Of a stretch of 39,764 nucleotides of DNA, positions 9,858 through 14,489 are shown one piece after another. This DNA is from an uncultured bacterium. Lineage in GTDB: Bacteria > Verrucomicrobiota > Kiritimatiellia > CAIKKV01 > CAITUY01. Made by a program: the position numbers and the translations under genes. Location: assembly GCA_903958395.1 (NCBI GenBank), contig CAJBSZ010000506.1, positions 1 through 39,764 on the forward strand. Reading direction: 5' to 3'. Each line of letters starts with the position of its first letter. Positions within the stretch are counted from its first letter, which is position 1. A model generated the notes under the pieces. It worked only from the letters and a program-made list of their open reading frames with translations. It was not told the DNA's origin and searched no databases.

Positions 9858-12800
9858 ATGCGAAGACATAGATTCCTGAATATGACAAGTTGTGGCTGGA
9901 TTTTGCTGGCAATGTCGTGTTGTGGGGCGGCTGAATCCGGACCAACCTTGGCGGGGCGCCGGCCAAACATTATTTTGATTCTAAGCGACGACCAGGGATA
10001 TGGCGACCTGGGGAGGAACGGGAACAAGGTGTTGCAGACACCGTGCCTGGACAGGTTGTATGACGAGGGGGTGCGGTTTGAGAATTTTTATGTGAGTCAA
10101 ACCTGTGCGCCCACGCGGGCTGCCATCATGACGGGGATGCACGAGTTCAAGAGCGGCGTTACGCACACGGTATTTGAACGCGAGCGGATGAGTTTAAAAT
10201 CCACCACAATTGCTCAAATGTTGCAGTCGGCAGGGTATGCCACGGGTATTTTCGGCAAGTGGCATCTGGGTGACGAGGAGGCTTATCAGCCGGGGAAGCG
10301 CGGGTTTGACGAGGTGTTTATCCATGGCGGCGGCGGGATCGGGCAGACGTTCCCCGGCAGTTGTGGCGATGCGCCGGGAAATACATATTTCGACCCGGTG
10401 ATCAAACATAACGGCATATTCGAGAAAACCCACGGTTTTTGCACGGATGTTTTCTTCAGTCAGGCGATGAAATGGGTGGAGTCGGTCAAGGGGCCGGAGC
10501 CGTTTTTCCTCTATCTTGCCCTCAACGCCCCCCATGTCCCTTTAAGTTGTCCGCCAAAATATGAAGCGCCGTATAAGGGGAAGGTGGATCCTGACGTCGC
10601 GAAATTTTTCGGTATGCTGGCCAATATTGATGAAAATGTCGGTAAGCTGATGGCAAAACTCTCGGAATGGGGTATCGAAAAAGAAACACTGGTGATATAC
10701 CTGAACGATAATGGCGGGTATGGTCCCGCGACCAGGGTCTGGAATGCCGGAATGCGGGGGGGGAAAGCGACGCCGCACAATGGAGGCACCAGGGCGATGT
10801 CGCTATGGCGCTGGCCCGGTACAGTTAAACCGGGTCGCTGTGACCGGCTCACGGCGCACCTGGATCTGTTCCCGACATTTGCTGAATTGGCGAATACAAA
10901 GATTAATGAGGACCATTCCAGGAAACTTGACGGATTCAGTCTCGTTCCGTTGCTTGAGAACCCCCAGGCCGGTTGGCATGAGGACCGGATGTTGTTTATC
11001 CATGGCGGCCGGTGGGGTGGAATGAAGCCGGAAGGCGCGCCACCCGATAAATATTTGGACTGTAGTGTGCGGTGGCGGCAGTACCTGATGGTTCATGAAA
11101 AGAGGCAGGATTGGCGACTTTATGATCTCAAGGCAGATCCCGGTGAAACAAACGATGTTCTGGGGAAGCATACGGATATCGGCGGGAAGTTGGCTGAGGC
11201 GTATGATAAATGGTGGACGTCGGTGTTGCCGTTCATGGAGAATGAGTCGGCCTGGAAGACTGCCCCCACAATAAATCCGTTCAAGGAAAAGTATTGGAAG
11301 CAATATGCCGGACCGGGACCGAACAACAGTGCCCCTGATCCCGTGCTGCCGCCTGAGATTGAGGATCCTCAATGCGTGGGGATCAACAAGCAACCGGCGC
11401 ATGCAACACTGATGCCGTATGGCAGTCTTGAAGAAGCGCTCCGTGCCCGGCGCTCTGCTTCACCGTACTGCCGCAGCCTTAACGGGCCGTGGAAATTCAA
11501 CTGGGTAAAACATCCAGCGGAACGACCGGTTGATTTTTACAAGCCGGATTATGATGTGAGCCTGTGGAAAGAGATCCCGGTGCCGTCCTGCTGGCAGCTT
11601 GAGGGTTACGGCACGCCGTACTACAAGAACAATGGCTATGTTTTCAAGAAGGACTGGCCACGCGTGATGACAGAACCGCCCAAGGATTGGACGGCCTACA
11701 CCGAGCGCAACCCGGTGGGAAGTTACCGCCGCGAATTCGAGGTTCCCGCAGCCTGGGCGGGCCGCCGCCTCTTTGTGACGTTCGACGGTGTTGATTCGGC
11801 CTTCTATCTCTGGGTGAACGGCGAAAAGGTGGGCTTCAGCGTGAACAGCCGGAATCCGGCGGAATTCGACCTGACTAAATTTGTCAAGCCGGGCAAAAAC
11901 CTTATTGCGGTGGAGGTCTACCGTTTCAGTTGCGGCAGCTATCTTGAAGATCAGGACATGTGGCGGCTCAGCGGAATTTTCCGTAACGTGACGCTCTGGA
12001 GTGCGCCGCCGCTCCATGTGCGCGATTTCTTCGTGAAGACCGACTTCGATGAAAAGTATCATGACGCGACGCTGGATGTGAGCGCAAAAATTAGGAACTT
12101 CAGCGATACGGACAGGGGTCCATCCAGATTTTCGGTAGAGCTTTTTGCGGGGGATGGGAAGCCTGTTCCTGGTGCAACCGCCAGCACCGGGGTTCCGGCG
12201 ATGAAAGCAGGACGGGAGACGGCCGTTAGCCTGAAAATTCCCGTGGCGAATCCATTGAAATGGACTGCCGAAACCCCGAACCTTTACACGACGGTTCTCA
12301 AACTTGGAGACGAAATCATCTCGTGCCGGACAGGGTTCAGGAAGATTGACATCAAGGGCAGAGTCTTCCTGATCAACGGCGTGCCTGTTAAATTGAAGGG
12401 CGTAAACCTGCATGAAAACTGGCCGGATACCGGTCACTACGTTCCAGAGGAGAGGATGGTCAGGGACCTTGAACTGATGAAGCAGGGGAATTGCAATCAT
12501 GTCCGCACCAGCCACTACTCCCATGATCCGCGCTGGTATGAGCTGTGCGACGAATATGGCCTCTATCTTGTGGCGGAGGCGAACGTGGAATCGCATGGAT
12601 ATCAGCGCGCGCCCCAACCGCTTTCCGGTCTCAAGGAGTGGGAGGCGGCGCACGTGGACCGGAATGTGGCCAACGTGGAGAATTTCAAGAATCATCCGTC
12701 TGTCGTAATCTGGTCGCTGGGAAATGAGTCGGCCGGGGGCACCAACTTTTTGGCGGCTCTTGCGGCAGTCAAGGCGATTGACGCCACTCGCCCCACTCAT

Positions 12801-14489
12801 TATGAGCGGTTCGGCGGCCGGTTGTTTCCAGGCAATTCAACGGACATCCAGGGTGCCATGTATACGCCGCTTCCCCGTCTGGAGACGCTGGCCTCAAGTA
12901 CGAATTGCACCAGGCCGTACTACCTGTGTGAGTATGCGCATGCCATGTTCAACTCGATGGGATCGCTGGGGGAGTACAGCGATCTTTTCGACACGGTTCC
13001 GGGGCTGATGGGGGGCGCCATCTGGGAGTGGCAGGACCAGGGCCTCTGGAACGGGCGCGACCCGAAGAGGCAGTTTATGGCTTACGGCGGCGGATTTGGC
13101 GAAGTTCCGAACGACCACTACTTCATTCATAAGGGCGTGGTGTTTTCCGACCGGTCGCCCAAGCCGCATTATCCCGAAATGAAGCGTGTCTACCAGTGGA
13201 TCGGCCTGGAAGCGGATGACCTTGCCGCCGGGACAGTGAAGATCAAGAACAAGTATCAATTCATCCCGCTTGACCGGTTCGAAGGAGCGTGGACGGTGAG
13301 CGAAGACGGCACGGTGATCGACAGGGGATCGCTGGCGGTTGGGGGTATTGCTCCCGGCGCGGAAAAAGAAATCAAGGTGCCTTTCAAGGCGATCATGCCG
13401 AAACCCGGCGCAGAGTATTTCCTGCGCGTGTCATTGGCGCTTGCGAAAGATGAACTCTGGGCGAAGGCCGGCTACGAGGTGGCCGCCGGGCAATTCAAAC
13501 TACCGGTCGGGGCGCCCGCGCCAGTCGAAAAGGCCGCCGGGAAACATCCGGTCATGGTGACGCAGGATGCGGAACAGGTCACGGTCAGCGGCGAAGGGTT
13601 TTCGGTTGTGTTTGACAAAGTCCATGGCTCGATTTCCCGGCTCGTGCGGGACGGCGTCGATATTCTCGTGAAAGGTGGGGGCCCCAGACTCCATCTCTGG
13701 CGGGCGATGCACCGTAACGACGACAAGTGGGCTGCGGGTGACTGGACCCGGTACGGGCTGACCAACCTGGCAGGAAAGGTGATTTCTTTTCAAGCGTTGC
13801 AGAAAGATCCGCTTTCGGCCACGGTGTCAATATCAGTCAAGTTCGCCGGGAAATCAGGATTCGGCATGATCCATTCGGCCCGGCATGTCGTGAACGGCGA
13901 TGGCTCAATCGTCGTTGATAATGGGATTGTTCCTGAGGGAAAACGTATTCCGCTGGCTCGGCTCGGTGTGCGGCTGCTGCTTGACAGAAAACTGGATCGG
14001 TTCACCTACCTGGGGCGTGGCCCGATGGAGAATTATTCAGACCGCAAGCGCGGTTCCGATGTCGGGTTATACTCGGGCACCGTCAAGGCGAATATGACAC
14101 CGTATGCCAAACCGATGGAGTGCGGGAATCACGAGGATGTCCGTTGGGCGGCGCTTGACGGAAATGGAATGCCCGGTTTGCTGGTCCAGGCGGATGGCGG
14201 TTTGCTGCAGGCGGCCGCACTTCCCTACACGGACGAGGTGATGGATCCGATTGAATACACGGTTGATCTGCCGGAAAGTACGTCCACGGTTTTCTGTGTG
14301 GGGTCTGCGGCCCTGGGTGTCGGGTCGGCCTCCTGCGGGTCACCGCCGCTGGACGAGTATAAAGTGTGGTCAGACCCGGCAACATTTTCCTATGTGCTGC
14401 GCCTCCTGCCGGAGAATGAAAAGAATTTTGCCGCTGCGGGTCGTTTAGCCGTTTCTGGCTCCGATAGAAAGGTTCTCAATGGACGATGA
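9858..14489 (+). CDS. Fusion protein: N-terminal S1-type sulfatase plus C-terminal GH2 LacZ-like beta-galactosidase
   Basis: Start set at ATG 9858 (ORF opens at 9786). Sulfatase: [33 protein letters not shown] (Cys codon 10104-10106), GKWHLG. GH2: [69 protein letters not shown]. No stop between the domains. Confidence 0.9.

Follow-up and report, generated by a model that had tools for sequence, protein, structure and literature searches.

An S1 sulfatase joined in one frame to a LacZ-type GH2 enzyme in an uncultured bacterium of the Kiritimatiellia

A single open reading frame of the uncultured bacterium represented by assembly GCA_903958395.1 (Verrucomicrobiota; Kiritimatiellia) appears to encode two enzymes, an S1 sulfatase and a beta-galactosidase of the LacZ type belonging to glycoside hydrolase family 2 (GH2). 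It lies on contig CAJBSZ010000506.1 within the window, that is, the whole stretch of 39,764 nucleotides that was analysed. Does this frame represent a true gene fusion or two genes joined by error, and on which sugars would the joined enzymes act? Fusions of sulfatases with glycosidases are already known; the pairing of an S1 sulfatase with a LacZ-type GH2 enzyme is seen nowhere else in the genomes searched.

Two catalytic modules in one open frame

The gene occupies positions 9858-14489 of the forward strand and encodes 1543 residues with no internal stop, as compared to 53 and 75 stops in the two remaining forward frames over the same positions. Translation and Pfam agree with the preliminary description, which saw here one stop-free frame for a Cys-type S1 sulfatase followed by a full LacZ-type GH2 enzyme, and the Sulfatase, GH2 and Bgal_small_N domains that it proposed to look for were all recovered. 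The sulfatase module extends from residue 36 to about residue 484 (9963-11309, forward strand) and matches the Pfam families Sulfatase (36-346, 6e-49; positions 1-300 of the 301 of profile PF00884) and SGSH_C (315-438). Its formylglycine motif of the C-x-P-x-R type, CAPTR, places the modified cysteine at residue 83, encoded by TGT at 10104-10106, the codon already pointed out. The motifs DDQGYGD, KWHLGD and NDNGG are invariant in an alignment with six relatives. By its full-length profile match, its cysteine motif and its ligand motifs, the module belongs to the formylglycine-type S1 sulfatases.

The second module (residues 498-1514; 11349-14399, forward strand) contains the complete five-domain LacZ architecture: Glyco_hydro_2_N (539-717), Glyco_hydro_2 (720-828), Glyco_hydro_2_C (830-1115, 1e-79), LacZ_4 (1127-1216) and Bgal_small_N (1244-1514, 1.5e-56). 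Both acid residues previously recognized in GNES and CEYAHAM are present as Glu957 (12726-12728) and Glu1025 (12930-12932), and align with glutamates of the solved bacterial LacZ 6sd0. NCBIfam assigns this half to the LacZ-type beta-galactosidases (NF052611, Bga2A) at 932.2 bits, below the equivalog cut-off of 999 bits; it is therefore the same type of enzyme, not an equivalog under the curated rule. With both catalytic modules complete within one frame, the product is a sulfatase-glycosidase fusion in architecture.

One residue of the LacZ half stands out in an alignment of 85 LacZ sequences. Residue 851, located two positions ahead of the Glu conserved in NRHE, is Leu in the fusion (codon CTG, 12408-12410, forward strand), as against Arg in 6sd0 and in each of the 84 relatives. 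The fusion therefore lacks the Arg of NRHE, a residue that is conserved and invariant among the aligned relatives although not formally defining. Since an invariant residue is replaced, the rate or the specificity of the LacZ enzyme may be altered. One could go further and suppose that, in a genuine fusion, Leu851 has weakened or respecified the LacZ half, which would then contribute chiefly binding or oligomerisation to the sulfatase. We consider such a reduced role quite unlikely: the fused LacZ keeps both catalytic glutamates and almost every other conserved position, and it deviates about as often as its divergence would predict. At 341 conserved columns the fused LacZ departs 13 times, its closest relative 14 times and stand-alone LacZ proteins of similar divergence 12-17 times, so that there is no sign of decay.

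The junction, its authenticity and its rarity

The manner in which the two modules are joined can be read from the termini of stand-alone homologues. Stand-alone sulfatases that are 58-67% identical over the module end in ...GPGPNNVPPPV*, ...GPGPNNVPSGTQAPSKKN, ...YWKQYGGPGPNNVPSGTQAPSKKN, ...YWQQFKGPGPNNVPPPV or ...YWKQFNGPGPNRVPPPS, and the fusion contains this normal C-terminal tail, of pattern GPGPNN...PV (11310-11348, forward strand), joined directly to PPEIEDPQC from position 11349. Stand-alone LacZ proteins (60-71% identical) begin with a signal peptide followed by (P)LPPELEDPQC, WPPEIENEQC and similar sequences; the fusion starts its LacZ half at the mature N-terminus, and the signal peptide is absent. 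What had been described as a Pro-rich linker is thus the native tail of the sulfatase followed by the native mature N-terminus of LacZ, and a separate linker is excluded, as both flanks match native ends of stand-alone proteins. At its other end, the fusion lacks the C-terminal F5/8C domain carried by most near LacZ relatives, whose chains are longer by about 200 residues at this end (in the relative G022, an F5/8 type C domain). The next gene starts at 14479 and thus overlaps the last codons of the fusion gene (stop codon 14487-14489).

A lost stop codon, a frameshift, an error of sequencing or a chance mis-join would not be expected to remove the LacZ signal peptide; combined with the exactness of the join, its absence makes a real gene fusion very probable. 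An artefact would consist of two separate genes brought together by mis-assembly or base error, and in its favour it can be said that the evidence for the fusion comes from a single draft genome (559 contigs) and that no fused homologue was found elsewhere among the sequences searched. Against it stand the missing signal peptide and the in-frame join between a natural sulfatase tail and a mature LacZ start. Moreover, the 5.2 Mb assembly contains the junction sequence a single time, which leaves no second copy able to cause a mis-join; GC content is continuous across the junction, and third-position GC of the two halves (0.63 and 0.68) resembles that of neighbouring genes. A second fusion of the same genome, on contig C481, follows the same logic (see below). 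Assembly error or frameshift is accordingly excluded as the main reading, and we regard an artefact of any kind as highly improbable. The preliminary description would have abandoned the fusion had it been both absent from all relatives and an assembly error: the absence stands, in that the searches yielded no further copy in fused form, but the way in which the modules are joined speaks strongly against the error.

The pairing was sought in about 600 distinct genomes, from the same genus up to the phylum, by protein search, and in a collection of 84,980 species, of which the best 80 loci were taken; other phyla were covered by a pattern scan of that collection alone. No second sulfatase-LacZ fusion appeared among the matches listed for these genomes (relatives, class and phylum samples) or among the best 80 loci. 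At these loci nearly all LacZ matches start at about residue 480-500 of the query (the exceptions are one start at 450 and one match cut at 526), as expected of stand-alone LacZ. A co-domain check of 233 loci, 145 of them with a strong LacZ frame, found both domains in one frame in the window gene alone, a test by which divergent fusions could be missed. Twelve additional long LacZ frames (about 1480-1580 aa) from other genomes contain no sulfatase in the frame, a near-identity DNA search of plasmids yielded no fused copy, and in the DNA examined around LacZ relatives of at least 55% identity this sulfatase was never a neighbour. In five relatives (G113, G114, G530, G557 and G597), separate genes for an S1 sulfatase and a stand-alone LacZ-type enzyme occur within the same stretch. 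In two of them (L171, G114:C184; L172, G113:C110), a divergent S1 sulfatase frame lies directly upstream of LacZ in the same frame, with a single TAA between. Adjacent frames split by one stop codon represent a plausible route to fusion.

The genome (G000) contains 45 sulfatase matches, and the four found in frames longer than 800 aa are all fusions. Besides the window gene, these are a DUF5703/GH95-like enzyme followed by a sulfatase (1276 aa; L063, C481, a 4 kb contig, 90-3920), a sulfatase preceded by a beta-helix protein that weakly matches the GH141 insertion domain (1348 aa; L206, C207, 2509-6555, minus strand) and, with an unexpected partner, a beta-lactamase-family serine hydrolase followed by a sulfatase (857 aa; L207, C496, 870-3443). 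The glycosidase on C481 is 72% identical to a G022 protein (L213) that continues into an apparent discoidin-like (F5/8C) C-terminal domain; in the fusion this domain is replaced by the sulfatase, whose own signal peptide is absent. The C481 sulfatase and that of the window contig (C506) are 63% identical and fall with stand-alone relatives into different clades of the tree (support 0.997 and 0.871), which rules out a single shared event and indicates that the two fusions arose separately. Tentatively, the S1 sulfatases of this lineage might be mobile catalytic modules, repeatedly spliced onto other enzymes where signal peptides or carbohydrate-binding domains would otherwise stand. If so, the genome would hold at least four fusions (with LacZ, DUF5703/GH95-like, beta-helix/GH141-like and beta-lactamase-family partners) that act as dedicated desulfate-then-hydrolyse machines for sulfated heteropolysaccharides. 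The minus strand of contig C240 encodes another unusual combination (L209, 6622-9405), a GH95 catalytic domain with a GH2 N-terminal domain after it in the same frame.

Predicted export and maturation, and candidate substrates

Translation of the fusion may start at 9849 or 9858; a further candidate start, at 9786, lies upstream of the homologous N-terminus. Positions 9849-9941 (forward strand) encode a putative export signal with a lipobox-like LAMSC, as judged from the sequence, the N-termini of homologues and a PROSITE-type lipobox pattern. A stand-alone homologue carries MNNINRRDFLKITG, which is Tat-like (NRRDFLK). The N-terminus of the fusion is thus probably an export signal, with a possible lipobox. 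As previously stated, the window contains no sulfatase maturase, and the proposal that maturation occurs in trans gains support from a gene for an anaerobic sulfatase maturase (anSME) on contig C6 (L200, 412-1581), which matches TIGR03942 at 462.8 bits (cut-off 349.5 bits). This gene adjoins one for a sulfite exporter of the TauE/SafE type. Matches to PF03781, a broad family, are likewise present in the genome.

The explanation that we favour, and hold to be probable without being assured of it, is a true two-enzyme fusion that is exported, matured by anSME, and desulfates before it hydrolyses. A complete S1 sulfatase, nearest to subfamily S1_19, would have been joined via its natural C-terminal tail to a mature LacZ-type GH2 enzyme, a formerly secreted protein thereby losing its signal peptide, with the C-terminal F5/8C domain also absent. 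The C6-encoded maturase would act on Cys83 in the cytoplasm, generating formylglycine, and the protein would be exported on the sulfatase's own N-terminal signal. Once outside, the two modules would act in sequence, sulfate removal preceding glycosidic cleavage. The benefit of fusion would probably be that one secreted protein takes first the sulfate and then the sugar off a complex polysaccharide.

Which sugar carries the sulfate is less easily answered. Among solved chains, the sulfatase module is closest to S1_19 (6bia, 3e-76), followed by S1_16 (9fo1, 2e-66), and its identity to S1_19 is about one-third. A structure predicted from a 7-row alignment reached a mean pLDDT of 55, too poor for a fold search. 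S1_19A and S1_19B remove the 4-sulfate from galactose in carrageenan (PMC6923384), which fits a LacZ partner, in that a terminal galactose would be desulfated and then cleaved; sequence similarity thus makes galactose a plausible sulfated sugar. The stand-alone sulfatase closest to the module (67-70% identical) is that of G344, whose gene has a GH29 alpha-L-fucosidase gene and another sulfatase gene beside it; the sulfate may therefore sit on a sugar other than galactose, which could be fucose.

Genes surrounding the fusion are those of a glycan-degradation cluster. Upstream lies a member of the GH125 alpha-mannosidase family (8138-9823, forward strand; Pfam), and the next gene downstream, defined by ORF calling and Pfam, encodes a DUF5703_N/GH95-like glycosidase (14479-17472, forward strand) that shares 28% identity with the glycosidase portion of the fusion on C481. 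The window further encodes GH106, a GPH-type transporter, a six-hairpin glycoside hydrolase, an MFS protein, GH31, an AraC regulator, GH115, two SASA esterases and another GH95-like enzyme. We infer that the cluster serves the breakdown of a mixed acidic heteropolysaccharide and not of carrageenan. The DUF5703_N proteins of the window and of L063 resemble GH95-type glycosidases, the former with a weak match to the GH95 catalytic domain; no mention of DUF5703 was found in a literature search. Three other frames of the cluster (18840-20339, 23861-25798 and 31809-32390) have no Pfam match, and a weak resemblance to NosD (beta-helix) is the sole Pfam lead for 25836-29081 (1081 aa).

These observations bear on another reading of a real fusion, in which each module acts on a different residue of a single complex glycan, e.g. 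a fucose- or rhamnose-sulfate and a beta-galactoside, and the gain lies in common export and co-localisation instead of the sequential processing of one sugar. It is suggested by the alpha-fucosidase gene beside the G344 sulfatase, by the GH106, GH125, GH31, GH115, GH95-like and SASA esterase genes of the window, a set typical of mixed heteropolysaccharides, and by the quite different enzymes, including a beta-lactamase-family protein, to which other sulfatases of the genome are fused. The nearest solved sulfatases (S1_19: 6bia, 6b0j and 6prm), on the other hand, act on galactose-4-sulfate, which suits a beta-galactosidase partner, and we judge action on different residues to be possible but distinctly less probable than sequential action. 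Of the coupled desulfation and hydrolysis of a sulfated galactose-containing glycan that had been proposed at the outset, the coupling is backed by the precedents discussed below; galactose is a candidate only, given the one-third identity to S1_19, the fucosidase neighbour in G344 and the mixed gene cluster.

A sulfatase of uncertain specificity is here paired with a glycosidase on a single chain, which yields a concrete prediction of its substrate. Together, this fusion and the other sulfatase fusions of the genome may provide 'Rosetta stone' hints to the substrates of uncharacterised S1 sulfatases, and the sulfatase-LacZ fusion could serve as a one-pot enzyme for sulfated galactosides.

Relation to known sulfatases, beta-galactosidases and their fusions

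The sulfatase finds its best match over the whole module, together with its formylglycine-type motifs, in S1_19 (S1_19A 6bia and 6b0j; S1_19B 6prm); these enzymes, however, are stand-alone carrageenan Gal-4-sulfatases of about one-third identity, and S1_16 (9fo1) is not far behind. With the LacZ-type GH2 enzymes (NF052611 Bga2A; 6sd0, 3bga) the second module shares all five domains and both catalytic Glu, but it differs in having an N-terminal sulfatase instead of a signal peptide, in missing the F5/8C domain of most near relatives, in Leu851 for Arg, and in scoring 932 rather than 999 bits.

In-frame joins of sulfatases and glycoside hydrolases also occur in other sulfatase-rich PVC bacteria. 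According to the portion of the report consulted, the Kiritimatiellales strains F1 and F21 encode S1_7 fused with GH10 or GH32, and S1_15 with GH29 (PMC6388578); their sulfatase subfamilies and glycosidase families are different from those described here, and this portion makes no mention of a sulfatase fused to a GH2 beta-galactosidase. A functional precedent for desulfation before GH2 cleavage is found in the lambda-carrageenan pathway, in which a GH2 beta-galactosidase releases galactose only once S1_8C has desulfated the terminal galactose (PMC12549532), although these are two separate proteins and the sulfatase belongs to S1_8. A further comparison is with P36 of the ulvan pathway of Formosa agariphila, a GH78|S1_25 hybrid whose modules act in consecutive steps (PMC8511951) and whose PDB entry, 6hr5, is named 'Alpha-L-rhamnosidase/sulfatase (GH78)'. 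P36 comes from a marine member of the Bacteroidetes and combines a GH78 alpha-L-rhamnosidase with S1_25, whereas the present fusion combines a LacZ-type GH2 enzyme with an N-terminal, S1_19-like sulfatase. In both, an S1 sulfatase and an exo-glycosidase share one polypeptide, and in P36 both modules work at one and the same non-reducing end.
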